A stretch of 62,927 nt of DNA from a virus. Both the position numbers and the translations under genes were made by a program. Below, one piece after another: positions 33,351 to 45,838 of the stretch (position 1 is the stretch's first letter; the number at the start of each line of letters is the position of its first letter). The stretch lies in the IMG/VR virus record IMGVR_UViG_3300035187_002838, positions 1 through 62,927 of that record. The stretch is one strand, 5' to 3'. A model generated the notes under the pieces. The model was not told the origin of the DNA. It did no database searches and was given only the letters and a program-made list of their open reading frames with translations.

Positions 33351-33361
33351 AAGGACTGTGT

Positions 33362-33676
33362 ATGCCTTACGGAATGAGAATTTGGGATGCTAGTGGCAAT
33401 CTAACTCTAGACACCACAGACCGAATAACCCGGTTTGTGACAAGTATAACACCAGGTACTATCGCAGCAAATTCAACAGTCAGTTACAGTGTGCCCGGCA
33501 TCGTAGACGATGGTACGTGGTTTTTGGTAGTAATGAACACATGGCGACCGGCTTCTAATAGCACTGCTGTTTTTATCGTAATGACAATTACATCTGGTTT
33601 TATAAATGCTGAAAATAAGAGTACCACGGCTTGGACAAATGGTCTTGGTACTAGAATAGAAGTATTTAGGGGCTGA
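33362..33676 (+). CDS. Small tail fibre-like protein, 104 aa
   Basis: Starts 11 nt after the J-like gene with AAAGGAC upstream. The pattern Y-G-M-R-I-W-D-A-S-G-N-L-T-L-D-T-T-D-R is common at the start of small phage tail proteins encoded after J. The remainder is predicted beta-rich. It shares the Y-G-x-x-I-x-x-A-x-x-N opening with the next gene, which suggests that they are paralogues. Confidence 0.65.
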   Translation: MPYGMRIWDASGNLTLDTTDRITRFVTSITPGTIAANSTVSYSVPGIVDDGTWFLVVMNTWRPASNSTAVFIVMTITSGFINAENKSTTAWTNGLGTRIEVFRG

Positions 33677-33677
33677 T

Positions 33678-34313
33678 ATGTCATACGGTATTAATATTTA
33701 TAACGCTGCCAATAACATTATTATTAGCCAAGACTTTACTAACTATCACGTGGTTTCAAGCGGCACACTTGCAAATGCTGCGGCATGGCCTACGATTGCT
33801 GCTAATGAGATTCTTTTTATCAGAGCAAATACAGCAGGTGCAATAGTAAGATCTAGTATTCCGATAGGCACAATTTCGGTTTCTGCTGGGCTTGTCGAAT
33901 ATGTTGTGGTTAGACGTACTCCAAGCCCTTCCGCTAACACGTTTGGCCTACGCGTATATCAATCCGACGGAGTTAGCATAGCCTTTGACTCGGGGGCAGC
34001 AGCTGCAAAAATTGTATCAAGCTATACAAAAGTTGGACGGTCTGATGGGTTTTTTGCGTATTGGAATGTTACACTAAATCAACCTATTGCAGTTCCTACT
34101 GGCAGAAAACGATATATTACTGCCGAACCTTTCAGAGGCTTGACAGCAGTTTGGCCAGGATTCTTTCCTTTTCCGCCTGCTATAATTCTTGACCAAATCA
34201 CTTGGACCTCTGATACGCAACAGTATATTGACCAATTTACCACGGGTGGTGGTGGTTCAGGCGCTCCAATAGACTTTCAAAGTTCAAAGATCTTTTTAAC
34301 CATTGATATATAG
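33678..34313 (+). CDS. Tail fibre-like protein, 211 aa
   Basis: Starts 1 nt after the previous stop. The opening S-Y-G-I-N-I-Y-N-A-A-N-N-I-I-I-S-Q-D matches the preceding gene. The rest is beta-rich and ends with a Gly-rich stretch before an aliphatic C-terminus (S-S-K-I-F-L-T-I-D-I). It is probably an accessory tip or side-fibre component. Receptor role inferred only. Confidence 0.6.
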   Translation: MSYGINIYNAANNIIISQDFTNYHVVSSGTLANAAAWPTIAANEILFIRANTAGAIVRSSIPIGTISVSAGLVEYVVVRRTPSPSANTFGLRVYQSDGVSIAFDSGAAAAKIVSSYTKVGRSDGFFAYWNVTLNQPIAVPTGRKRYITAEPFRGLTAVWPGFFPFPPAIILDQITWTSDTQQYIDQFTTGGGGSGAPIDFQSSKIFLTIDI

Positions 34314-34320
34314 GCCCAAA

Positions 34321-34923
34321 ATGATGAGTGTATTCGTATATCTTGACCAAAATCAAACACCAACCGGAGTGCAGCGTTTCGAAACAATGCCCGGAGTGGA
34401 CATTACAGTTCCACCTGGAGTCTTGTATTTTGAAGACGCTTCTGAGCTACCTAATGACATGGATATCATAAACCATTGGAGAATAAAATCAGGTGTGTTA
34501 ACAGACGTCGGTCCAAATCCAGGTCCTTCGTATCGTTGGGACACAAATTCTGAAAGCTGGATTCCAGACATACCAAAGGCAAAAGAAAATAAACTTCAAC
34601 AATTAAAAGCTACGAGAGACCAAAAAGAATCTGGAGGCTTTGTTTGGGATGGTAGCGTATTTGATAGTGATCCATTGAGCCAATTAAGGATACAAGGTAG
34701 TGTAGCATTAGCGCAAGTTGCTTTTGCTTCCAATACGCCCTTTACAATAGAGTGGACTTTAAAAAACAATTCTATAAGAAGTCTTTCAGGACAAGATATG
34801 ATTCAAGTTGGACTCTCTTTAGCAAATCATATTATCACAATTCATCAGACTTATAGAGATTTAAAAGAACAGTTAAGTAATGCAACTACTCTGCAAGTTA
34901 TAGACAATATTTTATGGCCTTAG
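34321..34923 (+). CDS. Tail fibre assembly-like protein with DUF4376 domain, 200 aa
   Basis: ATG 34321 is chosen; a TTG at 34303 would overlap the previous gene. The second half has the DUF4376 pattern: K-L-Q-Q-L-K-A-T-R-D, then S-G-G-F-V-W-D-G-S-V-F-D-S-D, and S-Q-L-R-I-Q-G-S-V-A-L-A. These proteins occur beside tail fibres and are thought to be fibre assembly factors or fibre components. The last 10 nt overlap the next gene. Confidence 0.75.
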   Translation: MMSVFVYLDQNQTPTGVQRFETMPGVDITVPPGVLYFEDASELPNDMDIINHWRIKSGVLTDVGPNPGPSYRWDTNSESWIPDIPKAKENKLQQLKATRDQKESGGFVWDGSVFDSDPLSQLRIQGSVALAQVAFASNTPFTIEWTLKNNSIRSLSGQDMIQVGLSLANHIITIHQTYRDLKEQLSNATTLQVIDNILWP

Positions 34924-35369
34924 CTGTAATTGATAAAATAAAGCTTTTTCATGAGATTGCATACTGTGTCAACATGTATGCTAATTTGAATGACTTCACT
35001 TTTCTTCCAATCGATCGTAATTTAGCTATCCAAAATTTAGCATTAGCAGTACGTCGTCAAAAGTTTGTAAGAGTTTTAAAACAGGACAATCAAATAGTAA
35101 CCTGGATTTATGCAGATGTTGGAAATAGTCTTCATATGACTGAAAGAATACTTCAACAGCAATACTACTGCTCAACTTTAACTGGAACAAAAGCTTTTAG
35201 GGCAGTTCAAATCTTACACGAAGAACTTTTAAAATATGCTAAAGAAAATAAATACGACATAGTATTTTCCAATGGAAGTCATATGGATGAAAAATACGTC
35301 TTTACTCGTATGCTGGAAAAACTAGGCTGGCAACGCCGGGGCTACGTGGCCTACAAACGGCCCGACTAG
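34914..35369 (+). CDS. GNAT-like acetyltransferase, 151 aa
   Basis: The C-terminal half resembles the GNAT fold as seen in small phage proteins: A-F-R-A-V-Q-I-L-H-E-E-L-L-K-Y-A, then E-K-L-G-W-Q-R-R-G-Y-V-A-Y-K-R. Similar genes often follow tail genes. Substrate unknown; it could modify a virion or host protein. The GC-rich 3' end (35330-35369) merges into the structured region that follows. Confidence 0.55.
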   Translation: MALAVIDKIKLFHEIAYCVNMYANLNDFTFLPIDRNLAIQNLALAVRRQKFVRVLKQDNQIVTWIYADVGNSLHMTERILQQQYYCSTLTGTKAFRAVQILHEELLKYAKENKYDIVFSNGSHMDEKYVFTRMLEKLGWQRRGYVAYKRPD

Positions 35370-35460
35370 GTACCAGACGGGTCCACCTTGCAAAAATTTT
35401 TCGTCGGTAGGGCCAGGGTGATGTCGTGAAAAATCGCGTCACCTTGGACCGTTTTTCTTT
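35370..35460 (+). terminator. GC-rich structured spacer ending in a terminator-like hairpin
   Basis: GGTCCA (35380-35385) pairs with TGGACC (35445-35450), which is followed by GTTTTTCTTT. Inside, AGGGTGA (35415-35421) pairs with TCACCTT (35439-35445), forming a second, stacked stem. The start GGTACCAGACGGG resembles the segment at 6233. This can act as a late-transcript terminator ahead of the lysis cassette. It may also be a member of the same RNA family as 6139-6279. Confidence 0.55.
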
Positions 35461-35478
35461 GCATATTTATTAGCGGAA

Positions 35479-35494
35479 CCCGTTAGATTAACCC
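35479..35494 (+). promoter_or_regulatory. Repeated promoter-like motif, copy 2 (before lysis genes)
   Basis: CCCGTTAGATTAACCC, preceded by AGCGGAA. It is identical to copy 1 over 16 nt. It lies directly after the terminator-like hairpin and 75 nt before the holin start. An AGGA/TCCT hairpin lies downstream at 35496-35510. Confidence 0.6.
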
Positions 35495-35568
35495 AAGGAC
35501 GGCCCCTCCTATTAGATATCTGTATCATATTGTAGTAGATGTTATAGTACTAAAGTATAAGGAATAGA

Positions 35569-36096
35569 ATGATACCATTAATGATTCAGCCGCTCATTGC
35601 AGGAGGTCTTAATCTCCTTGCTAATGCAGCTATGGCAAAAGGTAAAGAATGGATTCAAGAAAAGACAGGTATTGATATTGATAAAGGTTCTTTGTCACCT
35701 CAAGAACTTCATGCTCTACAACAGTATGAAATGGATCACGAGGAAGAGCTCTTAAGAATCAAACAAGAAGACAATAGAATTGCTGCAGACCTTGAAAAAG
35801 CATATTTAGCAGATGTGCAAAGTGCTAGAAACATGCAGCAGACTGCTATCGAATCTGACGATAAATTTGTCAGACGGTTTGTGTATTACTTTGCAATTTT
35901 CTGGGCAATTTGTACGGCGTCTTACATTGGATTTATTACCTTTGGTGTAGTGCCTGAAGATAATGTAAGATTTGCAGACACAATTCTTGGCTTCTTGCTC
36001 GGCACAATTTTGTCTGGAATTTTTAACTTTTTCTATGGTTCGTCTAAAGGCAGTCAAGATAAAACTCAAGCAATGCTTAAGGAGATCTCTAAATGA
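35569..36096 (+). CDS. Holin, three-TM / GTA-holin type, 175 aa
   Basis: Holins permeabilise the inner membrane to end the lytic cycle. The N-terminal region is amphipathic. Residues 85-95 contain D-V-Q-S-A-R-N-M-Q, the signature seen in the three-TM holin family. Two hydrophobic segments follow (F-V-Y-Y-F-A-I-F-W-A-I-C-T-A-S-Y-I-G-F and D-T-I-L-G-F-L-L-G-T-I-L-S-G-I). The end is F-F-Y-G-S-S-K-G-S-Q-D-K-T. It overlaps the endolysin gene by 4 nt. Confidence 0.8.
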   Translation: MIPLMIQPLIAGGLNLLANAAMAKGKEWIQEKTGIDIDKGSLSPQELHALQQYEMDHEEELLRIKQEDNRIAADLEKAYLADVQSARNMQQTAIESDDKFVRRFVYYFAIFWAICTASYIGFITFGVVPEDNVRFADTILGFLLGTILSGIFNFFYGSSKGSQDKTQAMLKEISK

Positions 36097-36422
36097 TGAC
36101 ATTAGGTCAACATCAAGAAGCCTTTGCGAGAGATCTTGCAAAACTATTGTCAAAAGCTTTTGAGCTAGGTTATGATGCTCGCTTAGGTGAGCTACAAAGA
36201 ACAGTTGATCAGCAGACTATTTATGTTAAGACAGGCAAGTCGCAAACAATGAATAGTATGCATTTAAAGAAATGTGCAATTGACATTTTCTTTACAAGAT
36301 CAGGGCAGCTTGTATACCCTGAAGAGCTTGGGAAATATTGGGAGAGCTTAAATTCTCTTAACCAAGCTGGTATGTTTTGGCGAAAATTTAAAGATGGTCC
36401 ACATTACGAAAGAAGGTGCTAA
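36093..36422 (+). CDS. Endolysin, M15-type L,D-/D,D-peptidase, 109 aa
   Basis: The product probably cuts peptide cross-links in peptidoglycan. It has the zinc ligands of M15 peptidases: S-M-H-L-K-K-C-A-I-D (H and D spaced as in S-x-H-x-x-G-x-A-x-D) and the distal H of D-G-P-H-Y-E. No signal peptide is visible, so export depends on the holin encoded just before, with which it shares an ATGA overlap. The size is small but normal for this family. Confidence 0.8.
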   Translation: MMTLGQHQEAFARDLAKLLSKAFELGYDARLGELQRTVDQQTIYVKTGKSQTMNSMHLKKCAIDIFFTRSGQLVYPEELGKYWESLNSLNQAGMFWRKFKDGPHYERRC

Positions 36423-36533
36423 ATGGCTACGAAACCAATGATCCCAATTAAGAAAGATAATTTTAAAACTTGCCCTGGATGCCCTAGTCCAGGTAAGTGC
36501 AAAGCTGCAGGCAAGTGTCTTAAAAGCAAGTAA
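36423..36533 (+). CDS. Cysteine-rich mini-protein, 36 aa
   Basis: Starts directly after the endolysin stop. Sequence pattern C-P-G-C-P-S-P-G-K-C-K-A-A-G-K-C, four Cys in 16 residues, suggests a zinc-binding knuckle. I recognise similar tiny proteins next to lysis genes in other phages, but know of no function. A terminator hairpin follows 5 nt downstream. Confidence 0.6.
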   Translation: MATKPMIPIKKDNFKTCPGCPSPGKCKAAGKCLKSK

Positions 36534-36537
36534 CATC

Positions 36538-36566
36538 AACCCCACTGAAAGGTGGGGTTTTATTTT
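36538..36566 (+). terminator. Intrinsic terminator after the lysis cassette
   Basis: AACCCCAC (36538-36545) pairs with GTGGGGTT (36552-36559), with a 6-nt loop followed by TTTTATTTT. A clear rho-independent terminator. Confidence 0.9.
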
Positions 36567-36575
36567 GGAGTTAAG

Positions 36576-36827
36576 ATGCCATACGATCCTAGTAGAAAAA
36601 GAGATTACAAAAAAGAATATAAGCAAGACCTGAAAACAGGCAAGTCCGGTCCAGATAGTGATCAACATGAACGTCAGAAGGCTAGACGAATGTATGATTC
36701 TATGGGCGTTGATAGGGATGGTAAACATATAGACCACAAGAAGCCAATTAGGAGTGGCGGTAAGTCTGTTAAAGGTAATTTAAGATTACGTGACCCTAGC
36801 AAGAACAGCGCTGATAACGGCAAATAG
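36576..36827 (+). CDS. Small HNH-like protein, 83 aa
   Basis: ATG 36576 has GGAG at 36567-36570. The N-terminus is basic (Y-D-P-S-R-K-R-D-Y-K-K-E-Y). The C-terminal half has an HNH-like core: I-D-H-K-K-P-I-R-S-G-G, then K-G-N-L-R-L-R-D-P-S-K-N. Small HNH proteins near lysis or terminase genes can be nicking partners of terminase. Here the terminase is not in view. It lacks the Cys pairs of classic HNH endonucleases. Confidence 0.6.
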   Translation: MPYDPSRKRDYKKEYKQDLKTGKSGPDSDQHERQKARRMYDSMGVDRDGKHIDHKKPIRSGGKSVKGNLRLRDPSKNSADNGK

Positions 36828-36841
36828 TTCAACGGGTGTCA

Positions 36842-36872
36842 TGCGGAAAAGTCGGTATCTTATATGATAAGC
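36842..36872 (+). repeat. Spacer repeat R1, copy 1
   Basis: TGCGGAAAAGTCGGTATCTT followed by ATATGATAAGC. Two more copies lie at 40908-40928 and 41515-41540. All lie in gene-free spacers of the small-gene island. In copy 2 the sequence forms the 3' arm of a long hairpin. Confidence 0.7.
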
Positions 36873-36891
36873 AAAAGCCTATCAACAAATT

Positions 36892-36910
36892 CATATGCGA
36901 TGCGCATATG
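36892..36910. other. Perfect inverted repeat, CATATGCG-atg-CGCATATG
   Basis: Eight base pairs with a three-nucleotide loop, in the spacer before the first paralogous small gene. Without a T tract it is not a terminator. It may be an operator or an RNA hairpin. Confidence 0.55.
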
Positions 36911-36954
36911 GACTTTTGTAATCTACGCCTAAACGGGCAATGGAGAAGTCAACA

Positions 36955-37215
36955 ATGCTTTCTCACACAGAAGCTTTGTCAAAGCTGAAGACTGTTGAGC
37001 CGTCTGATCTCGTACAAATCAGTACGCGTATTGGAAAATATCTTGGACGGCCGATCTATCCGGCATCGTCGATAGTAATTGAAGAAGTAAGTGACGATGG
37101 CGGCCTTGCCGCTATGGTCAAGATGACTTACAAGGGGGTGCAGGTTTACAATTCCATGGCATATCATCCCACCCTGGCCCAGTGCATTGTCTTCGTTATG
37201 GCAAAGCATTGGTAA
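36955..37215 (+). CDS. Small protein, paralogue A, 86 aa
   Basis: Start at 36955 is favoured by GGAG at 36942-36945; ATG 36940 is an in-frame alternative. The product is a clear paralogue of the gene at 37858: shared L-V-Q-I-S-T-R-I-G-K-Y-L-G, E-V-S-D-D-G-G, V-K-M-T-Y-K, and a common end T-L-A-Q-C-I-x-F-x-M-A-K-H-W. Predicted mixed alpha/beta. No known family. A hammerhead ribozyme begins at the base after the stop in both paralogues. Confidence 0.75.
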   Translation: MLSHTEALSKLKTVEPSDLVQISTRIGKYLGRPIYPASSIVIEEVSDDGGLAAMVKMTYKGVQVYNSMAYHPTLAQCIVFVMAKHW

Positions 37216-37279
37216 GTGAAACTGAAGAGGCTTAAATAATAGCCGAAACCTAGGCCCTTCGGGGCCGATGGTCTTTCAC
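37216..37279 (+). ncRNA. Type I hammerhead ribozyme, copy 1
   Basis: All conserved positions are present. Stem I is GTGAAA (37216-37221) with TTTCAC (37274-37279). CTGAAGA (37222-37228) fits CUGANGA. Stem II is GGCT/AGCC. GAAA is at 37245-37248. Stem III is an interrupted GC helix capped by TTCG. The cleavage triplet GTC is at 37271-37273, so the predicted cut is after C37273. It starts directly after the stop codon of the preceding gene and ends 21 nt before the next start. Confidence 0.93.
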
Positions 37280-37299
37280 AACTTTGAAGGAATCTTCAA

Positions 37300-37605
37300 A
37301 TGAAACGTCAAGGTGCTGTATTTAACAGGCGCGAATTAAAGCGCGCAAGAAATTTAGTAAGGTGGGTTGCAAATGGATGCAACTGGAAAAATCCAGTCAA
37401 CGCAACTTCAATAGCAGCAAAATCGTCTTTAAATAACTATGCAGTTTGCATTGAAGTACTTGGATTTGCAAAGAATCTTGCAAATCAAGGAAACAGTCTT
37501 ATTACGCAATCTATAGCAGGAGCTGCTGTTGATGCCGTTCTTAGAGGAGACTTAGGATGGGCTGATGATTTGATGGACTTTTGGTCTGAACGCGGACTTT
37601 TATAA
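37300..37605 (+). CDS. Hypothetical protein, 101 aa
   Basis: GAAGGA lies 9 nt before the start but falls inside a hairpin (TTTGAAG/CTTCAAA), which could limit translation. The product is predicted helical and basic at the N-terminus (R-R-E-L-K-R-A-R-N-L-V-R-W). It continues with V-A-N-G-C-N-W-K-N-P. No family recognised. The message is predicted to have a new 5' end made by the hammerhead upstream. Confidence 0.7.
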   Translation: MKRQGAVFNRRELKRARNLVRWVANGCNWKNPVNATSIAAKSSLNNYAVCIEVLGFAKNLANQGNSLITQSIAGAAVDAVLRGDLGWADDLMDFWSERGLL

Positions 37606-37614
37606 CCAATGAGA

Positions 37615-37626
37615 TTTTTTTTTTTT
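37615..37626 (+). repeat. Poly-T tract (12 T) before a ribosome binding site
   Basis: An uninterrupted run of 12 T, followed by CAAAGGAG and then the start of the 44-aa gene. No strong hairpin precedes it, so it is not a standard terminator. The T-run plus CAAAGGAG pattern recurs at 38664. Confidence 0.8.
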
Positions 37627-37641
37627 CAAAGGAGTTTTAAA

Positions 37642-37776
37642 ATGAACGCTTATCTGCGTTACATGAAAGCCGAAGCTCGCGCTTATGAGAGCAACAATGT
37701 TTCCAGAATGTTGAAGTTGGCAAGTCTTAAAGCGCGTGCGTACAGTATGTACGGTTTAACTTGTCTTTACTGGTAA
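37642..37776 (+). CDS. Small basic protein, 44 aa
   Basis: AAAGGAG precedes ATG 37642. The product is Tyr-, Ala- and Leu-rich (M-N-A-Y-L-R-Y-M-K-A-E-A-R-A-Y) and ends G-L-T-C-L-Y-W. It lies between a poly-T leader and hammerhead copy 2, whose first base follows the stop codon. The good ribosome binding site and the framing by RNA elements support a real gene. Function unknown. Confidence 0.65.
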   Translation: MNAYLRYMKAEARAYESNNVSRMLKLASLKARAYSMYGLTCLYW

Positions 37777-37837
37777 GTGAAACTGAAGAGACCTTTATGG
37801 TCGAAACCTAGGCTCTTCGGGGCCGATGGTCTTTCAC
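37777..37837 (+). ncRNA. Type I hammerhead ribozyme, copy 2
   Basis: Same architecture as copy 1. Stem II is GACC/GGTC instead of GGCT/AGCC, a compensatory change that keeps pairing, with a TTTAT loop. The stem III CCC becomes CTC, opposite GGG (G-U wobble). Predicted cut after C37831 in GTC. Starts at the base after the preceding stop; the next start is 21 nt after its end. Confidence 0.93.
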
Positions 37838-37857
37838 AAACTTTGAAGGAGTCTTAA

Positions 37858-38130
37858 ATGGAAACTTTTCTCTCTCATGCAGATGCTTTAACAAAGCTGA
37901 AAACTGCGGATCCTTTCTGTCTTGTACAGATTAGTACTCGTATTGGAAAGTATCTAGGAAAGCCTCTTTATCGGACATCATCAATCGTGGTGCACGAGGT
38001 GAGTGACGATGGTGGCATTGCTGCTCAGGTTAAGATGACTTATAAAAGTAAGTCTATCGTTGATCCTGACGGAACGTATACTCCAACCCTCGCACAATGC
38101 ATTGCATTTATCATGGCAAAGCATTGGTAA
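37858..38130 (+). CDS. Small protein, paralogue B, 90 aa
   Basis: GAAGGAG lies 6 nt before the start. Paralogue of the 86-aa gene at 36955, roughly two thirds identical by eye over the aligned length. The differences cluster at the N-terminus and around residue 65, where B has four extra residues (S-I-V-D-P-D-G). Both are followed directly by a hammerhead, so the gene and ribozyme appear to have been duplicated as a unit. Confidence 0.75.
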   Translation: METFLSHADALTKLKTADPFCLVQISTRIGKYLGKPLYRTSSIVVHEVSDDGGIAAQVKMTYKSKSIVDPDGTYTPTLAQCIAFIMAKHW

Positions 38131-38191
38131 GTGAAACTGAAGAGGCTTCATTAGCCGAAACCTAGGCCCTTCGGGGCCGATGGTCTTTCAC
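38131..38191 (+). ncRNA. Type I hammerhead ribozyme, copy 3
   Basis: Core identical to copy 1, with a shorter stem II loop (TCATT). Stem I GTGAAA/TTTCAC, CTGAAGA at 38137-38143, GAAA at 38157-38160, GTC at 38183-38185 with the cut predicted after C38185. The first base follows the stop codon; a CGGAG ribosome binding site follows at 38194. Confidence 0.93.
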
Positions 38192-38206
38192 AACGGAGTT
38201 TTTTGT

Positions 38207-38608
38207 ATGAACGCAACCGCACGGTTCTCTTCCACCTCTCAAAAGGAAGACGGTCTGACTGTTACTGAAAAAACAGTCCTCACGATATGCCCTCCTGGAT
38301 GCTTCAAAGAAGAAGCGGAAGACGATGGTGTGTCTTACAAAAGCATCCTCAAGCTTTCAAATGGAAGCCACTTTCTCGTCTGGGACGAAGTAAAGAAGGA
38401 GGATGGTGTGTGGTTCTACGGATTCCACGAGTTCACTTGGGACTCGGATATCCAATACAACACCCACGTAGGTGGCATCTGCTTCTCAGCAGTTAAGCCA
38501 GGATACATCGAGTGGAATTCCCGTAACTGGGACGTGACTGATAAAGACGTCACGATGGCTGAAGAAAATAAATTCCGCCAAGTCATCCACCGCGTACTAG
38601 GCGGCTGA
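38207..38608 (+). CDS. Hypothetical protein, 133 aa
   Basis: ATG 38207 follows CGGAG with a T-rich spacer. The product is acidic and predicted beta-rich, with several aromatic residues (L-V-W-D-E-V-K-K-E-D-G-V-W-F-Y-G-F-H-E-F-T-W-D). No known family. Base composition is more GC-rich than its surroundings. Its message is expected to begin within hammerhead 3 after cleavage. Confidence 0.7.
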   Translation: MNATARFSSTSQKEDGLTVTEKTVLTICPPGCFKEEAEDDGVSYKSILKLSNGSHFLVWDEVKKEDGVWFYGFHEFTWDSDIQYNTHVGGICFSAVKPGYIEWNSRNWDVTDKDVTMAEENKFRQVIHRVLGG

Positions 38609-38613
38609 TACTT

Positions 38614-38640
38614 AGACCTGAGCAGGTCTTTAAAAGGCTC
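38614..38640 (+). repeat. Spacer repeat R2 (AGACCTGAGCAGGTCT hairpin), copy 1
   Basis: AGACCT-GAGC-AGGTCT hairpin followed by TTAAAAGGCTC. Further copies lie at 40853-40879 and 41469-41495, and a degraded copy lies at 62116-62140. The hairpins lack a direct T tract. They always sit just after a gene. Confidence 0.7.
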
Positions 38641-38663
38641 TGACTGAGCGAGCTGTAGCGTAA

Positions 38664-38681
38664 TTTTTTTTTTTTTTTTTT
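38664..38681 (+). repeat. Poly-T tract (18 T) before a ribosome binding site
   Basis: A run of 18 T followed by CAAAGGAGTG and the start of the 67-aa gene. A short GCTC/GAGC hairpin lies 20 nt upstream, so it could combine weak termination with a leader for the next gene. Confidence 0.8.
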
Positions 38682-38695
38682 CAAAGGAGTGTTAA

Positions 38696-38899
38696 ATGAA
38701 AAAGTTTATGAACTGGTTTAAAAATCTGTTTCAACCGCGGTCTGCGGCAGTTCTCGCCTTGATTGAGCTTGAAGAGTCGAAGCGGCAATTTCTTGTGTAC
38801 AAGGCTTCAGAAGAACAAGGCAAACACCTGGCCAAGTACTACAGCGAAAAGATTAGCAGGCTTGAAGCCTATCTCAAAGGGGACCAAAATGAAAAGTGA
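38696..38899 (+). CDS. Small phage protein, 67 aa
   Basis: Strong AAAGGAG 6 nt upstream. The product starts M-K-K-F-M-N-W-F-K-N-L-F and continues A-L-I-E-L-E-E-S-K-R-Q-F-L, then K-Y-Y-S-E-K-I-S-R-L-E-A-Y-L. I recognise this L-E-E-S-x-R ... R-L-x-x-[YF]-L layout from many small phage proteins; function unknown. Likely one amphipathic helix plus a coiled coil. Confidence 0.7.
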   Translation: MKKFMNWFKNLFQPRSAAVLALIELEESKRQFLVYKASEEQGKHLAKYYSEKISRLEAYLKGDQNEK

Positions 38900-38963
38900 A
38901 GATATTGGACTGATTGTCGTATCTGCAATTGCAATTCTTTTAATGATTACAGGAGTGATTTAA
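38889..38963 (+). CDS. Single-TM mini-protein, 24 aa
   Basis: Starts inside the end of the previous gene and ends in a TAATG overlap with the next. Nearly all of it is one hydrophobic helix (L-I-V-V-S-A-I-A-I-L-L-M-I-T-G-V-I). The overlaps on both sides suggest translational coupling, but the length makes the call uncertain. Confidence 0.45.
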   Translation: MKSEDIGLIVVSAIAILLMITGVI

Positions 38964-39106
38964 TGGTCACATTTGGGAAGTTCAAGTGGCCAGTGAGCAT
39001 CGTGAGTTACGCGCAGGAAAGCCACATGCGCAATCCCGCGTATTACCACATGTCTTTGGAGGAAATCCTCCATAAGTTTTACAGCACTTATAAGAGAGCT
39101 GTTTAA
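38963..39106 (+). CDS. Hypothetical protein, 47 aa
   Basis: TAATG start coupled to the mini-protein; AGGAG at 38951-38955 is suitably placed. Contains Y-A-Q-E-S-H-M-R-N-P-A-Y-Y-H-M-S-L-E-E-I-L. No family recognised. Followed immediately by the two-hairpin spacer repeat. Confidence 0.6.
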   Translation: MVTFGKFKWPVSIVSYAQESHMRNPAYYHMSLEEILHKFYSTYKRAV

Positions 39107-39108
39107 CC

Positions 39109-39162
39109 CATTTAGAAGCCATTAGAGATAGTGGCTTCAATAATGTGTTAATTTTGACACAG
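39109..39162 (+). repeat. Two-hairpin spacer repeat R3, copy 1
   Basis: CATTTA, then a GAAGCCA/TGGCTTC hairpin, AATAA, and a TGTGT/ACACA hairpin, followed by GACTTTGAAAGGACT with the ribosome binding site of the next gene. Found at the same place between genes three times. In this copy the loops differ (GAGAT, AATTTTG) while the stems are kept. Confidence 0.8.
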
Positions 39163-39181
39163 ACTTTGAAAGGACTTTGAA

Positions 39182-39580
39182 ATGAAACATTTTCCATTGA
39201 GCTTGCCGCAAGAGATCGAGCTTATTGCGCAATTGCACCTTACTGGATCGCGGTACTTTGGAACTGCAAGACCTGTTTCTGACTGGGACTTTATTGTAGA
39301 TTCTGCGTCCAACGAAGTGATTTTAGCGTTATTTCGAAGGCACAAAGCCTACCTTATTGGCTCATATGCCATCGAGACTGGAGGCCAAGTTTGGCGTTGG
39401 GATTATGAGGCTCAACAAACCCATATCGACTTCCAGATCGTTCCAAATATAGCTTGGAAGCTCCGAGCGCAAGCTTGGATCAAAGCTATGTTGGATGAAG
39501 GGTTTTGCTTTCCAGACTCAAAAGTAAAAAGAAATAAGATTTGGGAGGCTGCTTTTAAGGCGTCAGAAGACCACGGTTAA
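39182..39580 (+). CDS. Nucleotidyltransferase-like protein, 132 aa
   Basis: Carries the minimal polymerase-beta-type nucleotidyltransferase signature: L-T-G-S-R-Y-F-G-T-A-R-P-V-S-D-W-D-F, with G-S followed by the D-x-D metal pair. A third acidic strand, T-H-I-D-F-Q-I-V, follows near residue 85. Such small enzymes may modify RNA or protein. The phage encodes a second, larger relative at 58832. Confidence 0.7.
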   Translation: MKHFPLSLPQEIELIAQLHLTGSRYFGTARPVSDWDFIVDSASNEVILALFRRHKAYLIGSYAIETGGQVWRWDYEAQQTHIDFQIVPNIAWKLRAQAWIKAMLDEGFCFPDSKVKRNKIWEAAFKASEDHG

Positions 39581-39587
39581 CTTAACT

Positions 39588-39641
39588 CATTTAGAAGCCA
39601 TTAGAAATAGTGGCTTCACTAATGTGTTAATGGTAACACAG
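39588..39641 (+). repeat. Two-hairpin spacer repeat R3, copy 2
   Basis: Same stems as copy 1 (GAAGCCA/TGGCTTC; TGTGTTA/TAACACA), again just after a stop codon and 18 nt before the next start. Confidence 0.8.
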
Positions 39642-39658
39642 ACTTTGAAAGGACTGAA

Positions 39659-39934
39659 ATGTTCTTGCATGTTTTCTATAACGGTAATGTTGATGTGAAA
39701 GAATTTAGTCTTCCACATGAGGCTTGGAATGCGCTGTATAAGCGTATGGAAGAGCTGTCGACAGAAGAAGTTTATGCGAAACTTTCTAATCAACCTGCAG
39801 AGGCTAATCCTTTTTTCTGGAGAAAAATTACGAAAGATCGTACTTCGCATCTTTCTATGAATCAAAAATATTTGCGAGGAATTAAAATTCTTCAGCAAGG
39901 AATTGATTCTTGGTATAACTCGAAAGGATTTTGA
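39659..39934 (+). CDS. Hypothetical protein, 91 aa
   Basis: AAAGGAC upstream of the start. The N-terminus is beta-like (M-F-L-H-V-F-Y-N-G-N-V-D-V-K-E-F). The middle is helical (A-L-Y-K-R-M-E-E-L-S-T-E-E-V-Y-A). Ends I-D-S-W-Y-N-S-K-G-F. No family recognised. Confidence 0.65.
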   Translation: MFLHVFYNGNVDVKEFSLPHEAWNALYKRMEELSTEEVYAKLSNQPAEANPFFWRKITKDRTSHLSMNQKYLRGIKILQQGIDSWYNSKGF

Positions 39935-39935
39935 A

Positions 39936-40151
39936 ATGGGTACTATTGACAGAGCAACTGCTGAAAAGATTCGTAGCGGGGCGCTATCCCAGGTATCGAT
40001 CCAATATATTATAGAATATAATAACATGTTTAATGGAGGTCTCGCCTATGGGTGTATCGGCTGGAGAGAAAACAAACGGAGATATCACGAATCTCCAGCC
40101 TGTATCAATCCGAGGCTTTGGTGGTCTAACCCTAAAGCTGAACCTTTTTGA
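39936..40151 (+). CDS. Hypothetical protein, 71 aa
   Basis: ATG 39936 is 1 nt after the preceding stop, with AAAGGA inside the upstream gene. N-terminus G-T-I-D-R-A-T-A-E-K-I-R-S-G-A-L could be a small DNA-binding helix. The C-terminus is Trp/Pro-rich (N-P-R-L-W-W-S-N-P-K). Function unknown. Confidence 0.6.
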   Translation: MGTIDRATAEKIRSGALSQVSIQYIIEYNNMFNGGLAYGCIGWRENKRRYHESPACINPRLWWSNPKAEPF

Positions 40152-40163
40152 AAGGACTTGACA

Positions 40164-40418
40164 ATGAATGCTGAAATCAAGTTGGCTGCTGAAACACTAG
40201 CCACGCATACTATTGAGTTTCATTTGGCAGCCTTTAATCTGCAAAAGGCTCGAGCCGAGCACTTCGGGATGCCTGGTGAGACTCGTTCTCCTGTGACTCG
40301 TTATCCTGCTGTGATTCGCGAGCTGGAGGATGATCGTATAGATTCCTATCATCGCATGGCTAGTGCTCAAGATGCTCTTAGTGCCATGTGCAGAGAGTAC
40401 GCCAAACTTAACTTTTGA
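40164..40418 (+). CDS. Hypothetical helical protein, 84 aa
   Basis: AAAGGA lies 7 nt before ATG 40164. Predicted two long helices (A-A-E-T-L-A-T-H-T-I-E-F-H-L-A-A-F-N-L and D-R-I-D-S-Y-H-R-M-A-S-A-Q-D-A-L) joined by a Pro-rich turn. No family recognised. Confidence 0.65.
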   Translation: MNAEIKLAAETLATHTIEFHLAAFNLQKARAEHFGMPGETRSPVTRYPAVIRELEDDRIDSYHRMASAQDALSAMCREYAKLNF

Positions 40419-40428
40419 AGGAGTTATC

Positions 40429-40560
40429 ATGTACCGTGTGTGGATTCCTATGATTCAAAAGTGGATCGAGAATGTGCCTGTGACAGAGGCAGTAGTATAT
40501 AAGGAAGAGGGCTACAAAGTTCTTCGTATGGATCTTCCGTACGAAACTCCTCCGCGCTAA
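40429..40560 (+). CDS. Small protein, 43 aa
   Basis: GAAGGAG precedes ATG 40429. Sequence M-Y-R-V-W-I-P-M-I-Q-K-W-I-E-N-V-P-V and end L-P-Y-E-T-P-P-R suggest a small beta-hairpin protein. Followed by R3 copy 3. Confidence 0.6.
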   Translation: MYRVWIPMIQKWIENVPVTEAVVYKEEGYKVLRMDLPYETPPR

Positions 40561-40565
40561 GAACG

Positions 40566-40620
40566 CATTTAGAAGCCATTAGAAATAGTGGCTTCAATAA
40601 TGTGTTAATGGTTAACACAG
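40566..40620 (+). repeat. Two-hairpin spacer repeat R3, copy 3
   Basis: GAAGCCA/TGGCTTC then TGTGTTAA/TTAACACA. Followed by a GCCC/GGGC mini-hairpin and AAGGAGG of the next gene. Confidence 0.8.
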
Positions 40621-40647
40621 AAACGCCCAAGTGGGCAAGGAGGTTCC

Positions 40648-40776
40648 GTGGAAGTAGTTGTAATCGCGGTATTCTCGTTTGGTGTCCTTAGGATTCTGAC
40701 AAAGAGTCCTAGGACTACTATCAGTGAACTCTCTGGCGAGGAGGGTTTTCTCAGCGCTCGCACACAATCTGTGTAG
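40648..40776 (+). CDS. Possible small membrane protein, GTG start, 42 aa
   Basis: The best evidence is a perfect AAGGAGG at 40638-40644 followed by GTG at 40648. The first 17 residues are hydrophobic (E-V-V-V-I-A-V-F-S-F-G-V-L-R-I-L). The remainder is polar. The short spacing is acceptable. No family recognised. Confidence 0.5.
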   Translation: MEVVVIAVFSFGVLRILTKSPRTTISELSGEEGFLSARTQSV

Positions 40777-40967
40777 AGCACTCTATCATACCATCCAAAA
40801 GGTGGTATGTTATGAGTGTTTTAATTCAAGGCCTACGAAGGCCGATGATAAGAGACCCGAGCAGGTCTTAAAAAGGCTCATTTATCATATAAGAAACTGC
40901 GGAAAAAGCGGTATCTTATATGATAAGCAATAGGGCTTATCAACAACATTAACCAAAGGAGTTAAAA
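40777..40967 (+). other. Structured spacer with long hairpins, R2 copy 2 and R1 copy 2
   Basis: A gene-free 190-nt spacer. First hairpin: CACTC and ATACCA at 40778-40796 pair with TGGTAT and GAGTG near 40802-40818. R2 copy 2 follows (40853-40879, AGACCC-GAGC-AGGTCT). Then TTATCATATAAGA pairs with TCTTATATGATAA over 13 bp (40882-40926), with an inner ACTGC/GCGGT stem made by R1. The spacer ends with AAAGGAG of the next gene. Confidence 0.6.
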
Positions 40968-41312
40968 ATGTTGTTGAATCTTACACCGCATACGATTGTG
41001 GTGAGGCTCTCAGATGGCGGAGAACACGTGTTCTCTCCGTTCGGCCAAACGGCTCGTGTGCAAATGATGCATGAGCCTGTAGAGAGCAGTTTCCCCTTTC
41101 CTGTCGTCACTCGCTTTGCGAGTACGATAGTTGAGGGCCTGCAGTATGACGAGCAAGGCAGGATTCTTCCGTGTCTTGTTTCGTCCATGGTTCTGGATGC
41201 CCTTCCTAAGGGTACCCAGAACGTGTATGCCCCGGATGCGGGGCCAACGGCCATTCGGGAGAATGGTCAAATCGTCGCGGTAACGCGGCTTATTCAAAAG
41301 GAGGGGTTGTGA
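40968..41312 (+). CDS. Conserved phage protein with LTPH start, 114 aa
   Basis: CAAAGGAG precedes ATG. The opening L-N-L-T-P-H-T-I-V-V-R, followed by F-S-P-F-G-Q-T-A-R-V, and the later Y-A-P-D-A-G-P-T-A-I-R-E-N-G-Q-I-V-A-V-T-R resemble a small beta-rich protein family found in many phages of Proteobacteria and Actinobacteria. Function unknown. GC-rich relative to neighbours. Confidence 0.7.
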   Translation: MLLNLTPHTIVVRLSDGGEHVFSPFGQTARVQMMHEPVESSFPFPVVTRFASTIVEGLQYDEQGRILPCLVSSMVLDALPKGTQNVYAPDAGPTAIRENGQIVAVTRLIQKEGL

Positions 41313-41461
41313 AAAAACCCGAACAGATGCAAGCCGAGCAGCTTGCCAAGAACCAAGCCACAAGGGCTTGGGCTGCTTCGAATGGGGTGGGCTCTAAGCC
41401 TGCTTCGTTCCCCGAGATTTCTCGGGCACCGGTTAAGAGCCGGAAGAACATCAAGCGTTGA
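41309..41461 (+). CDS. Small basic protein, GTG start, 50 aa
   Basis: GTG 41309 overlaps the previous stop (GTGA) and has GGAGGGG directly upstream. Sequence K-K-P-E-Q-M-Q-A-E-Q-L-A-K-N-Q-A-T-R-A-W and then K-P-A-S-F-P-E-I-S-R-A-P-V-K. The reading frame is GC-rich like its neighbour, and the overlap makes it convincing. Function unknown. Confidence 0.7.
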   Translation: MKKPEQMQAEQLAKNQATRAWAASNGVGSKPASFPEISRAPVKSRKNIKR

Positions 41462-41468
41462 TGTTCAA

Positions 41469-41540
41469 AGACCTGAGCAGGTCTTTAAAAGGCTCAAAAG
41501 TGTCCGCATAAAAATGCGGAAAAAGTGGTATCTTATATGA
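41469..41540 (+). repeat. R2 copy 3 and R1 copy 3
   Basis: R2 hairpin AGACCT-GAGC-AGGTCT at 41469-41484 with TTTAAAAGGCTC, then CCGCAT/ATGCGG with R1 (41515-41540). Together they repeat the R2-R1 order seen at 40853-40928, so the two elements form a composite repeat. Confidence 0.7.
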
Positions 41541-41559
41541 AAGGAGAAATCCCTATCAA

Positions 41560-42045
41560 GAGAACTGTGTGTTGAGTAGCGGAACACAGACTCTGTAAAA
41601 GTTAGCTATCGAGTAGTGACGTAATCACTCAGCCAATAAGTCAAAGCTGTCAAAGAGGACGATTCTACTCACGTTGTAAGATCGCGGGTCATGCCTATAC
41701 CCGATCGCATCAAATAGGAACCCATCTGAAATATGGTGGGACCACTTAAGCATCTTTAATCGGGTGCTTAAATGGTCTGACTGGGCTGGATAATGCCGAA
41801 TTTATCCTAGGTATAGAACACCGAACATGTACGTTGTTTCAGTCTATTGGAACAAGCCGGAGTAACGTAACCGGCAACCCTTTAGCAGCGGGGAAAAGCT
41901 AGCTATGAACAACTCAGTGTTGTTCCGTAAAGACTACGAAATGTCGAGCGACAGCTGCAACATCGCTTAATCAAGCGCAGCAACACCCAGCGAGTATGGT
42001 GTATAAAAACATCTTGTGAGAATCGAATGCCGAATCGATTCGAAA
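41560..42045 (+). ncRNA. Candidate large ornate noncoding RNA, about 490 nt
   Basis: No plausible gene is present (no frame with a ribosome binding site or family), while hairpins are dense. Perfect or near-perfect stems include 41565-41570 with 41584-41589, 41615-41619 with 41625-41629, 41685-41689 with 41699-41703, 41746-41753 with 41764-41771, 41788-41793 with 41802-41807, 41856-41860 with 41871-41875, 41907-41913 with 41919-41925, 41964-41968 with 41973-41977, and 42020-42026 with 42035-42041. Size and density recall the large phage RNAs GOLLD and ROOL. I cannot match it to their consensus from memory, so class is open. It is not tRNA-like. Confidence 0.65.
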
Positions 42046-42096
42046 TTTAAGCAGGCATCAAATTGGTCTTCAAATCAGTTCTTGAAAGGAACTATC

Positions 42097-42549
42097 ATGC
42101 GTGCTATTCAAGTTCTCCATTTCATTGTCAATGTCATTGTGAACTTCTTTATGGGAGTTCTCATTGGGTTGGCGGCCGTCAAGGTCTTTGCCCTGACGGG
42201 CTTGGCCTTGTCTTCAGGCTTTGGCTTGATCGTCTACCTGGCGCTTGCGTTCGCTGCAATGATTGCAGCCGGTACGATCGCTCAGGTGTACGATCGCGAA
42301 ATCGCCGCTTTCAGCGTCTATATTACTGGCGCGTTGATTGCGATCGCTGGCCTTGCTAGTCTCCCCATTCTGGCGCTGATTTCAGTTGCCTCTATGGTCA
42401 TCGGCTATGCTATCATGGCTGTTGGCCTTGTGGCTGGCATCACCCTTGTAGGTTTCTACAAGGCAAAGGATGCCGTCACAAGGGTTGTCAGCAATGTCAA
42501 GGCTTTCTTTAAGAAGGCTAAGAACAAGCTGACCCCGGCCCTGGCCTAA
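42097..42549 (+). CDS. Multi-pass membrane protein, 150 aa
   Basis: GAAAGGA precedes ATG 42097. Residues 5-125 are almost entirely hydrophobic and contain about four TM helices (V-L-H-F-I-V-N-V-I-V-N-F-F-M-G-V-L, A-L-A-F-A-A-M-I-A-A-G-T-I-A and others). The C-terminal tail is basic and helical. The gene is GC-rich and strongly codon-biased, so it is probably well expressed. Possibly acts on the host envelope, for example in superinfection exclusion or as an extra holin; this is not shown. Confidence 0.7.
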   Translation: MRAIQVLHFIVNVIVNFFMGVLIGLAAVKVFALTGLALSSGFGLIVYLALAFAAMIAAGTIAQVYDREIAAFSVYITGALIAIAGLASLPILALISVASMVIGYAIMAVGLVAGITLVGFYKAKDAVTRVVSNVKAFFKKAKNKLTPALA

Positions 42550-42559
42550 AAGAAAGAAT

Positions 42560-42608
42560 AAGGGGCACCCTAAAAAGTGCCCCTTATCTTTTTCTTTTTT
42601 TTTTTTTT
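42560..42608 (+). terminator. Intrinsic terminator with long T tracts
   Basis: AAGGGGCAC (42560-42568) pairs with GTGCCCCTT (42577-42585), followed by ATCTTTTTC and 14 further T (42595-42608). The next start codon comes only 3 nt after the T run. Confidence 0.9.
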
Positions 42609-42610
42609 CA

Positions 42611-42775
42611 ATGAAAAACAGAGCTATTCTACTTTCGACATTTGTAGTAGCCTCCCTACTTTTGTCAGAAGTTTTCAAGCTGTTTGATGAAGAGTACTAT
42701 AAAGTACTCGGAGGTGTTAGTGGACTTCTGATTTGTGTCTTTGTAAACAATCATCTTCAAAGGAAATCATCATGA
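42611..42775 (+). CDS. Small membrane protein, 54 aa
   Basis: ATG 42611 follows the terminator's poly-T run with no purine-rich ribosome binding site, so it may be translated at a low rate. The product has an N-terminal TM segment (A-I-L-L-S-T-F-V-V-A-S-L-L-L) and a second (L-G-G-V-S-G-L-L-I-C-V-F-V). Ends in ATGA overlap with the next gene. The arrangement supports a real but uncertain gene. Confidence 0.5.
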   Translation: MKNRAILLSTFVVASLLLSEVFKLFDEEYYKVLGGVSGLLICVFVNNHLQRKSS

Positions 42776-42984
42776 TGAAACTTTTCTTAAATGCTGCAAA
42801 AGCTTTTGCGGTAGTTTTCTTCATTGCACTTGCATTCGCAGTGTCGGCTGCTCCTGTGTTCTTTGGAATTGTATTTCTCTCGGCGACAGCCGTGGGAGCC
42901 GCAATTGTGTACGGGCTTTTCGGGGCAGTTGCAACAGGACTTATCGGGTACTTCAAAAGTGCAAAAAGCAAGCAAGATGTCTGA
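42772..42984 (+). CDS. Small membrane protein, 70 aa
   Basis: AAAGGAAA precedes the double ATG (42772/42775). The product has two hydrophobic helices, A-F-A-V-V-F-F-I-A-L-A-F-A-V and G-A-A-I-V-Y-G-L-F-G-A-V-A-T-G-L-I, and a basic tail. The first could serve as a signal anchor. Resembles the larger membrane protein at 42097 in composition. Confidence 0.65.
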   Translation: MMKLFLNAAKAFAVVFFIALAFAVSAAPVFFGIVFLSATAVGAAIVYGLFGAVATGLIGYFKSAKSKQDV

Positions 42985-43267
42985 TGTCCAAGTGGACATC
43001 GAAGGGCTCTTCTGCGTATCTAAACAATACCCAGAAATTAACAAGAGCATGTATCTTCCAACAGAACTTTTTAAGCCTTCAGTCAGGAGGTTTAAACTGT
43101 TCAACCTTCGTGAAACGTCTATGAAGAGGCTCGTCGGAAAGCCTCTAGCGTCTACTGAATACACCGGTATTGTAGACGTAGAAGGGTCACTTGTCCCCTT
43201 CTTTATCAAAACAGACAAAGTAGAAAAATTGAGACAGGCACAAGAGAGTATAAATAGTTTTATTTAA
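42977..43267 (+). CDS. Hypothetical protein, 96 aa
   Basis: ATG 42977 overlaps the end of the previous gene by 8 nt with AAGCAAG upstream. Sequence M-S-D-V-Q-V-D-I-E-G-L-F-C-V-S-K-Q-Y-P; predicted mixed alpha/beta, ending in a helix (V-E-K-L-R-Q-A-Q-E-S-I-N). No family recognised. Terminator directly downstream. Confidence 0.65.
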   Translation: MSDVQVDIEGLFCVSKQYPEINKSMYLPTELFKPSVRRFKLFNLRETSMKRLVGKPLASTEYTGIVDVEGSLVPFFIKTDKVEKLRQAQESINSFI

Positions 43268-43271
43268 AAAC

Positions 43272-43333
43272 AACCTCAGGTGCCCGCAAGGGCATCTGGG
43301 GTTATTCTTTTTTTTTTTTTTTTTTTTTTTTTT
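43272..43333 (+). terminator. Intrinsic terminator with 26-T run
   Basis: AACCTCAGGTGCCC (43272-43285) pairs with GGGCATCTGGGGTT (43290-43303) around a GCAA tetraloop; the mispairs are wobble. ATTC and then 26 T follow. Much longer than terminators need. Confidence 0.92.
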
Positions 43334-43373
43334 GTGGTAAGCAAGAAAAGGGCAATTAAAAAAAGGAGAAAAT

Positions 43374-43520: not shown

Positions 43521-43605
43521 GTTTTTGATTGGACTTTATCTAATTTATCTTATCCCTAAAATAATATCTAAAATAAAGGAACTTGATGAAAAAGAAAATT
43601 CTTGA
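43513..43605 (+). CDS. Possible mini membrane protein, 30 aa
   Basis: Overlaps the previous gene (8 nt) and the polymerase start (20 nt), with AAGAAAG upstream. One TM segment (F-L-I-G-L-Y-L-I-Y-L-I-P) and a charged tail. Overlaps on both sides are suggestive, but the frame is short. Confidence 0.35.
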   Translation: MIKFLIGLYLIYLIPKIISKIKELDEKENS

Positions 43606-45838
43606 TTCTTTAAACTCAAGAATAACAACTGAAATATCGGGACATAACCCGCTTAAATATTTGCTTAAGATTAAAACAGAAGATTATATTGATACATTAA
43701 TATCTATTGTATATCTATACACTAGACCGAAGAAGGGTCATAATAAAAATTCTATTTATCTTACAGAAGTTATTTCAGCTATCGGACACGGTATTCGGAA
43801 TAAGTTCAAACTAAAACGTGACTCAGCATTGGCGGCTAAAACTGGCGCCTTCATGTTATATACTTTTGAACATCTCGGATATATTCAAGTTGTTCTCGGA
43901 CAAGGCTCAAAAGGGCATAACACTTATCTTGTGCAAGTGCTCAATGATGATGAAATTTGCAATTTGTGGAATTCACTAGATCCTTCTCAAATTGAAAAGT
44001 TACCTTCAGAGACTCCCTACGAACCGTGGACTTCTGCAAAGCATTCAACGGGTGTCTGGCTTGTTAAAACAGGCAATAAAACAGTCTTAGACAGTCTTAC
44101 TCCAGAAACACATCCTATTGTCTTTAATTGCGTCAACAAAGCACAACAGATGGGCTGGAAAATAAACAATTGCGTTTACGATCTTCATTTGTGGGCCTTA
44201 CGAAATAAAACAGATGCATTCTCTGAAATCTGGGAATTGTCTAATGCGGAAGCAAAGGCAACTAAACTAAGAGAAGCAAAAGCTATAGGTGACATCTCAC
44301 GAAGATTCTTAAATAAAGTTTTTTATCATCTTTATTACTATGACTTTAGAGGTCGTAAATATACCGCTACTGCATATTTGCATGAGCAAGGCTCTGACCT
44401 TGCAAGAGGTCTACTATTGAGAGCAGACTCAAAACCAATTGGAAAAGAAGGCTTCTTTTGGCTAATGGTATCAATTGCTTCAAATTGGGCGGGTGATGCT
44501 GGCAGAGAAGATGGTGCAAAGACTGACAAAATACCGCTTCAAGAACGATATCTTTGGGCTCTAGACAACGAAGAAATTCTATTGTCATATGCCGAAAACC
44601 CTAAAGTAAATCAAGGTTGGATGAAAGCTGATAATCCTTGGCAATTCATTGCAGCGTGCAACGAACTAATGCGATTTAGAATCTGGCAAATGAATGTGTA
44701 TGAAAACCACAAAGATGTTGTAGCTGAATATGACTACCCATCATCGCTTGAAGTATATATTGACGGGTCAAACAATGGTAGTCAGCATCTTGCAGCATTG
44801 ACTAAAGATGAAATAATTGCACCGCATGTAAATCTGGTGCCATTAAACTTGCCTGGAGATCTCTACAAATATGTCGGTGACCATGTCTGGAAACATCTTG
44901 AAGAAGAGCTTTCTTTAATGACAAATGAAGAAATTCAGGACTGTGAACGAGTCATTGATAATCTAATTCAGCTTAAAAAGCAAATAAATGCTGCTGAACC
45001 TAAAAGTGATTTTAGAAAACAACTCATAGAACAAATCAAAGAATTTAAGTCTGAAAATGATCAGCTTATTGGGATTGCTGCACCTGTATTTTGGTCTAGA
45101 ATTAAAGATGCAAAACACAAGAGAAAGATTGTGAAAAGAAATACGATGACTATCCCGTATGGCGGAACAGCCTATGGCTTAGGTCAGCAAATCATTGATG
45201 ATGCTAGAAAGCATAATATTGAACTTTTGCTTTATATGGAACATCGATGGGGTGCATATCTCGGAAGAGAAGTGTTTAATGACTGCAAGCGTTCTTTAGA
45301 AAAGCCTATGCAATTGCTTAAGATCTTTGAAGAGGCTGGTCGAAAAGCTGAGCAAGACGGCAAGTTTTTATCCTGGACTGTGCCTGTTACAAAGTTTCCT
45401 GTAGTACAAAACTATACAGAAGGCGTTGTTAAAAAGATTTACGTACAATATGGTCCACCTCAAGGTCTTAGAAATAGCACAGGTTATTTTGATAATACAC
45501 TGCAATTAGCAATATGCTTCATTGAGGATGTAAAACCTTCTAAAGGAAAACAGTCTCAAGGTGCAAGTCCGAATATCATTCACAGTCTTGATGCTGCGCA
45601 TCTGTCTATGATTGTAGCTTCTTCTGACTTTCCTGTAACGACTATTCACGATTCTTTCGGATGTCTTCTGGCAGATATGCCTAAGTTGTTTGCAGTAACT
45701 AGACAAACATTTGTTGAACTTTATAAACAAGATCCTTTAACATCGATTATGAAAGATATAGGAGGTAATGCAAATGAAGTAGAACTAGGAAATCTTGATT
45801 TAAACTTGGTAATTGAATCCGAATATTGTTTTTGCTAA
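43586..45838 (+). CDS. T7-type single-subunit RNA polymerase, 750 aa
   Basis: Transcribes phage genes from phage-specific promoters. ATG 43586 has AAAGGA at 43576-43581. Motifs are textbook: D253-F-R-G-R-K-Y, G-S-D-L-A-R-G-L-L, motif A Y-I-D393-G-S-N-N-G-S-Q-H, motif B R-K-I-V-K517-R-N-T-M-T-I-P-Y525-G-G, and motif C H-S-L-D-A-A-H then T-I-H-D689-S-F-G. At 750 residues it is shorter than T7 (883), mostly at the N-terminus, so the promoter recognition part may differ. Made in the cell, in contrast to the MuF-linked polymerase. Confidence 0.95.
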   Translation: MKKKILDSLNSRITTEISGHNPLKYLLKIKTEDYIDTLISIVYLYTRPKKGHNKNSIYLTEVISAIGHGIRNKFKLKRDSALAAKTGAFMLYTFEHLGYIQVVLGQGSKGHNTYLVQVLNDDEICNLWNSLDPSQIEKLPSETPYEPWTSAKHSTGVWLVKTGNKTVLDSLTPETHPIVFNCVNKAQQMGWKINNCVYDLHLWALRNKTDAFSEIWELSNAEAKATKLREAKAIGDISRRFLNKVFYHLYYYDFRGRKYTATAYLHEQGSDLARGLLLRADSKPIGKEGFFWLMVSIASNWAGDAGREDGAKTDKIPLQERYLWALDNEEILLSYAENPKVNQGWMKADNPWQFIAACNELMRFRIWQMNVYENHKDVVAEYDYPSSLEVYIDGSNNGSQHLAALTKDEIIAPHVNLVPLNLPGDLYKYVGDHVWKHLEEELSLMTNEEIQDCERVIDNLIQLKKQINAAEPKSDFRKQLIEQIKEFKSENDQLIGIAAPVFWSRIKDAKHKRKIVKRNTMTIPYGGTAYGLGQQIIDDARKHNIELLLYMEHRWGAYLGREVFNDCKRSLEKPMQLLKIFEEAGRKAEQDGKFLSWTVPVTKFPVVQNYTEGVVKKIYVQYGPPQGLRNSTGYFDNTLQLAICFIEDVKPSKGKQSQGASPNIIHSLDAAHLSMIVASSDFPVTTIHDSFGCLLADMPKLFAVTRQTFVELYKQDPLTSIMKDIGGNANEVELGNLDLNLVIESEYCFC

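Follow-up and report, generated by a model that had tools for sequence, protein, structure and literature searches.

The window analyzed here, a virus record of 62,927 bases taken at its full length, carries three type I hammerhead ribozymes, all on the plus strand and recognized both by a core descriptor and by a covariance model. The explanation that we favor, and hold to be fairly probable, is that the three are active and would divide a polycistronic message of the phage at three junctions between genes. The features concerned are as follows.

36842..36877, plus strand: promoter-like repeat, with GGTATCTTATATGA at 36854-36867, some 350 nt upstream of hammerhead 1
36940..37215, plus strand: gene A, 91 aa, its TAA (37213-37215) abutting hammerhead 1
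37216-37279, plus strand: hammerhead ribozyme 1 (type I), covariance model score 69.6 bits, predicted cleavage between 37273 and 37274
37300..37605, plus strand: gene B, 101 aa, start 26 nt past cleavage site 1
37642..37776, plus strand: gene C, 44 aa, with a T run and CAAAGGAG ahead of it
37777-37837, plus strand: hammerhead ribozyme 2 (type I), 72.8 bits, predicted cleavage between 37831 and 37832
37858..38130, plus strand: gene A', 90 aa, paralogue of gene A, its stop codon abutting hammerhead 3
38131-38191, plus strand: hammerhead ribozyme 3 (type I), 73.8 bits, predicted cleavage between 38185 and 38186
38210..38608, plus strand: gene D, 132 aa, start 24 nt past cleavage site 3
43583..45838, plus strand: single-subunit (T7-type) RNA polymerase, PHROG 414, E 9.5e-107

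All three copies have an intact core (CUGANGA ... GAAA ... NUH, read here as CUGAAGA, GAAA and GUC) and the stem I GUGAAA/UUUCAC, in agreement with a preliminary description of this DNA. Stem I has six pairs, identical across the copies, and stem II has four, GGCU/AGCC in hammerheads 1 and 3 and GACC/GGUC in hammerhead 2; the compensatory change that had been pointed out in stem II is real, and concerns two pairs, not one. Stem III consists of three core pairs, a UA/GAU internal loop and a hairpin capped by UUCG. The three helices, with the open ends at stem I, make up the type I layout, and by eye the stem II loops are short and A/U-rich and the stem I flanks A-rich. Cleavage is predicted after C37273, C37831 and C38185, which gives the ends 37274, 37832 and 38186 expected beforehand. 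The covariance model found no fourth copy in the whole record, and a descriptor of type III hammerheads had no match in the window or in loci L115 to L169.

A chance motif is ruled out: the descriptor (core plus 3' strand of stem I) has three matches in the window and none in 100 dinucleotide shuffles, and a wider alignment displays covariation. This alignment comprises 18 hammerheads; 97.8% of the cells pair as the structure requires, a value that is partly selected for, since the rows were chosen from pattern and scanner matches. Changes occur on both sides at 14 of the 18 pairs, none of 500 shuffles reaches any covariation measure, and slid structures drop to 27 to 48%. The invariant pairs, uninformative on covariation, are the three stem III pairs adjoining the core and one stem II pair. 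Together, the compensated pairs of stem II and this wide covariation suggest selection for the fold. As bare elements, hammerheads 1 and 3 have the hammerhead as their minimum-energy fold; it is not their best fold at some flank lengths, and is so again with 60 nt on each side. For bare hammerhead 2, an alternative is favored by 1.7 kcal/mol (-20.6 versus -18.9) and another fold is preferred at every length tried, a preference that we would ascribe to a C-to-U change in its stem III.

The Rfam search that had been proposed as a check returned nothing at the gathering score when Hammerhead_1 (RF00163) was run on the window (best match 11.1 bits, cut-off 34), and the best match to Hammerhead_HH9 (RF02275) reached 20.1 bits for a cut-off of 52; core and fold are nevertheless those of the two families. 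None of seven records exceeded the 34 bits of RF00163, and no hammerhead was matched at gathering score in 14 loci. That the RF00163 threshold is missed reflects the limits of that model and not of the fold, and the model built here picks up many phage hammerheads that lie below the Rfam thresholds. A first pattern scan returned 29 stretches, two of which (L015 and L023) have hammerheads by the model. With a second pattern, which included a UA/RAU loop in stem III, 51 of 60 IMG/VR stretches had a model match at E 0.1. In GTDB genomes, a match was present in 16 of 16 stretches, mostly of Paenibacillus, also of Rhizobium, one Bacilli MAG and one Polaromonas MAG. Arrays are common, with eight model matches in G005, seven each in G004 and L034, and five in G008. 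In the Polaromonas bin, small contigs (L106, L110 and L113) carry five hammerheads that share this stem III loop pattern, and L106 holds three of them in series. The eight matches of G005 form one array (L091, about 8206-11088 of the record), in which stem I is GGTTAA/TTAACC in all seven copies read by the scanner and stems II and III vary; in the arrays of L034 and L038, stem I varies from copy to copy.

The UA/RAU internal loop is frequent across phage hammerheads (14 of 35 beyond one bait per contig, counting one locus per record, keeping the window whole and excluding loci with fewer than two scanned copies), a frequency biased by the presence of the loop in the search pattern. In the titles and abstract beginnings of the literature searched, this loop is not mentioned for natural hammerheads. 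A scan of the window for it gave four places, none of them a hammerhead at the settings used, and two were hairpins of a repeat described below (D2). We did not press the idea that the loop is a GNRA tetraloop receptor akin to the 11-nt receptor (CCUAAG/UAUGG): it is 2x3, not 3x2, and a partner was not found.

As had been claimed, each window hammerhead begins one base past a stop codon: the TAA codons lie at 37213-37215, 37774-37776 and 38128-38130, and stem I starts on the very next base in all three cases. From cleavage site to next start codon, the distances are 26, 26 and 24 nt, and each of these start codons has a ribosome binding site. The junction between genes B and C has no hammerhead. 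None of the small genes flanking the ribozymes, genes A, B, C and D included, has a match in PHROGs or Pfam; gene A' has no relative by tblastn, and INPHARED gave no match for 30000-46000 (megablast) or 36800-38700 (blastn). Genes A and A' are 67% identical over 88 aa, and the repeat that contains them (D1, D7) extends into the adjoining hammerhead, so each gene was copied jointly with its ribozyme as one unit, A along with hammerhead 1 and A' along with hammerhead 3. Long T runs occur in the window at 37615-37626, 38664-38681, 42590-42608 and 43308-43333, directly before ribosome binding sites or after hairpins, as they do in L015, L023 and L116; they could be real U tracts or slippage sites.

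The promoter-like repeat has three copies in the window (36842-36877, 40898-40933 and 41515-41550). Its 12-base core, TATCTTATATGA, was counted 45 times across 27 of the 55 relative loci, without exception on the plus strand; in L015, L023, L080 and L117, the motif lies some 180 to 560 nt ahead of the hammerheads. The repeat is probably the promoter of the phage's own T7-type RNA polymerase, and the enzyme encoded at 43583-45838 presumably transcribes the hammerhead operon. The three ribozymes are on the same strand with one or two genes between them and would share a transcript; their placement between cistrons, on the coding strand and downstream of such a motif, fits co-transcription and processing.

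How, then, might this message be processed? The phage polymerase would start it from the 36854 motif, at about 36870; each hammerhead would fold, then cut after GUC. Because nearly all of each hammerhead is upstream of its cleavage site, the upstream piece would retain its stop codon, with the folded ribozyme as its 3' end and a 2',3'-cyclic phosphate, while the downstream piece would begin with UUUCAC, a leader of 24 to 26 nt and a 5' hydroxyl. Such ends alter RNA decay, and cleavage may affect the stability or the dosage of the fragments. The predicted pieces are gene A, genes B and C together, gene A', and gene D onward. The earlier proposal that cleavage yields single-gene RNAs is therefore not right throughout, two genes (37300-37605 and 37642-37776) lying between copies 1 and 2. 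The early mRNA of phage T7 is cut between cistrons by RNase III, a protein enzyme of the host; the window RNA would cut itself.

Other elements of the window were recorded as well.

39103-39176: D2 repeat element, first copy
39582-39655: D2 repeat element, second copy
40560-40633: D2 repeat element, third copy
6280-9531: ORF for a Mu F-like head morphogenesis protein, ending in an RNA polymerase-like stretch (weak)
9467-9733: group I intron core, 89 bits
9757-10353: HNH ORF
10394-11818: ORF in which the RNA polymerase-like stretch resumes

D2 occupies a slot like that of the hammerheads, starting at or beside a stop codon. Its fold is a stem of 10 pairs, capped by a GAGA or GAAA loop, plus a 2x3 internal loop on an outer stem (z of -3.9, -3.8 and -5.4 for the copies), has no Rfam match, and is perhaps a processing or stability hairpin. 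The region 6280-11818 resembles a fusion between a head protein and a polymerase, interrupted by an intron.

Phage hammerheads in series are already known. Close series flanking prophage genes were reported in 2011 and proposed to process long transcripts (PMC3088659), so the processing interpretation is half new at most. In that work, 14 of 18 tested consensus hammerheads were active, three tandem sets that were assayed cut in vitro, and the triple of Agrobacterium tumefaciens also cut in E. coli. This ardA triple resembles ours in combining several hammerheads and small genes on one phage transcript, and in the proposed cutting into operon- or gene-length mRNAs; it belongs to another phage lineage and to other genes. 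The hammerhead of haloviruses HF1/HF2, 13 nt upstream of a helicase gene and with its cleavage site near a mapped 5' end, likewise directly precedes a start codon, but it is a single copy with a variant core, in a haloarchaeal virus (PMC3088659). In PMC3088659, the sole passage on an 'internal loop' concerns stems I and II and the sole passage on 'stem III' a dimeric form. Enrichment close to genes of Mu-like phages and to other ribozymes has also been noted (PMC10085705), and a 2017 review treats the role of prokaryotic hammerheads as an open question (PMC6155905).

Among relatives of this phage, hammerheads are patchy. L015, L023 and L080 (L097 comes from the same record as L080) have polymerase, endolysin or other proteins in common with the window. 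A search with the polymerase gave 55 relative loci, including L120, the contig of L015, and did not return L023 or the record of L080. Four of the 55 carry a hammerhead by the model (E up to 1), namely L117, L120, L133 and L140, the last two with low scores (26 and 21 bits) and yet fitting the descriptor. Restricting the count to loci with polymerase identity of at least 57% and at least 4 kb upstream, a subset picked and counted by eye, gives 4 of 25. In the distantly related DSS3_VP1, a search of 26 kb found no hammerhead. That the hammerhead is fixed in the lineage is ruled out, since most relatives lack the hammerhead in this region, and processing is accordingly not a conserved need of this lineage. 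The hammerheads of L015, L080 and L117 occupy different junctions, as seen from their neighbor genes: the gene upstream of that in L080 has an L015 relative whose end lacks a hammerhead, and the gene upstream of that in L015 has relatives in L116 and L117, neither of them ending in one. The genes beside the three window copies have no relative in these loci. Single hammerheads at differing junctions, with most relatives devoid of them, mark these as portable cut points. In L133, the hammerhead (2394-2441) starts two bases past a tRNA-Thr gene (2316-2391), and its cleavage could possibly free the tRNA 3' end.

Three other scenarios are considered. Cutting may occur and be neutral, small elements hitch-hiking or duplicating and settling at gene ends, where they do least damage. 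Patchy presence at differing junctions is in line with this, as are the L116 version of the L015 junction, which is devoid of a hammerhead and in which the stop codon overlaps the ribosome binding site, and the duplication of hammerheads along with gene A. However, the signs of fold selection given above count against neutrality, and neither a mobility gene nor an end repeat is seen at the hammerhead copies, so that we consider this scenario rather unlikely. Alternatively, the hammerheads could be mainly stable 3' structures that shield the upstream message or weaken onward transcription, cleavage being barely needed. The UUCG-capped stem III hairpin followed by a short T tail is indeed terminator-like in all three copies, but the tail is weak, and a plain hairpin has no need of the unpaired CUGANGA and GAAA, which are conserved (in part through the way the matches were searched); we tend to discard this idea. 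Re-ligation of fragments by neighboring hammerheads into circular RNAs (about 558 and 354 nt), or an exchange of ends, is the least credible, for although the identical stem I would let the 5' end of one copy pair in the next, and the G005 array also has a constant stem I, those of L034 and L038 do not, and spliced or circular products of tandem hammerheads were sought in PMC3088659 with none reported as detected. To return to processing, intact cores, covariation, the coding strand, the upstream motif series of up to eight in other phage records and the cutting seen with published tandem phage hammerheads speak for it, and the fold of hammerhead 2, those of hammerheads 1 and 3 at some flank lengths, the 4 of 25 relatives and DSS3_VP1 against it.

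The position of the stop codon was also compared over 84 distinct hammerheads with the core motif, left from 94 model matches after removal of four without CUGANGA and six duplicates, weak ones (<25 bits) being retained. Among open frames of 60 codons or more that end from 90 nt upstream to 45 nt into the ribozyme, the longest supplied the stop that was scored; the controls were 395 further CTGANGA sites from these loci, taken on either strand and mainly within genes. Of the 84 hammerheads, 26 have this stop at -3 to +6 relative to stem I (5 of 395 controls) and 20 have it as the core UGA (25 of 395), p-values for this comparison being too small because related phages are not independent. For frames of at least 100 codons, the counts are 12/84 versus 2/395 at stem I and 10/84 versus 10/395 for the core UGA. 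There is no excess of stops at -60 to -4 (6/84 versus 40/395) or at +14 to +40 (4/84 versus 16/395), and a previous comparison with 707 control sites from a larger number of loci led to the same result. In the lineage studied here, all eight hammerheads that follow protein genes have the stop at or in the ribozyme: abutting in the three of the window, in stem I in L015 and L023, as the core UGA in L117, and in the stem II loop in L080 and L140.

Tight packing of phage genes could by itself account for this placement. A stop codon in the ribozyme nonetheless means that a terminating ribosome covers the 5' strand of the ribozyme, and translation and cleavage should thus interfere. We raise tentatively, as a doubtful proposal, that phage hammerheads are placed so that the terminating ribosome stands on the ribozyme, cutting being gated by translation. 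The term 'stop codon' is absent from the main texts of PMC3088659 and PMC10085705, and a literature search for a stop codon within a ribozyme found no natural case among the entries listed, which is not proof of novelty. With its duplicated gene pair, and with relatives that have or lack a ribozyme at a matching junction, the compact array lends itself to a test of the processing idea, and the placement of stop codons offers a specific, checkable tie between hammerheads and translation: if gating holds, heavily translated messages would stay joined, and those that are idle or outrun by a fast phage polymerase would be cut.
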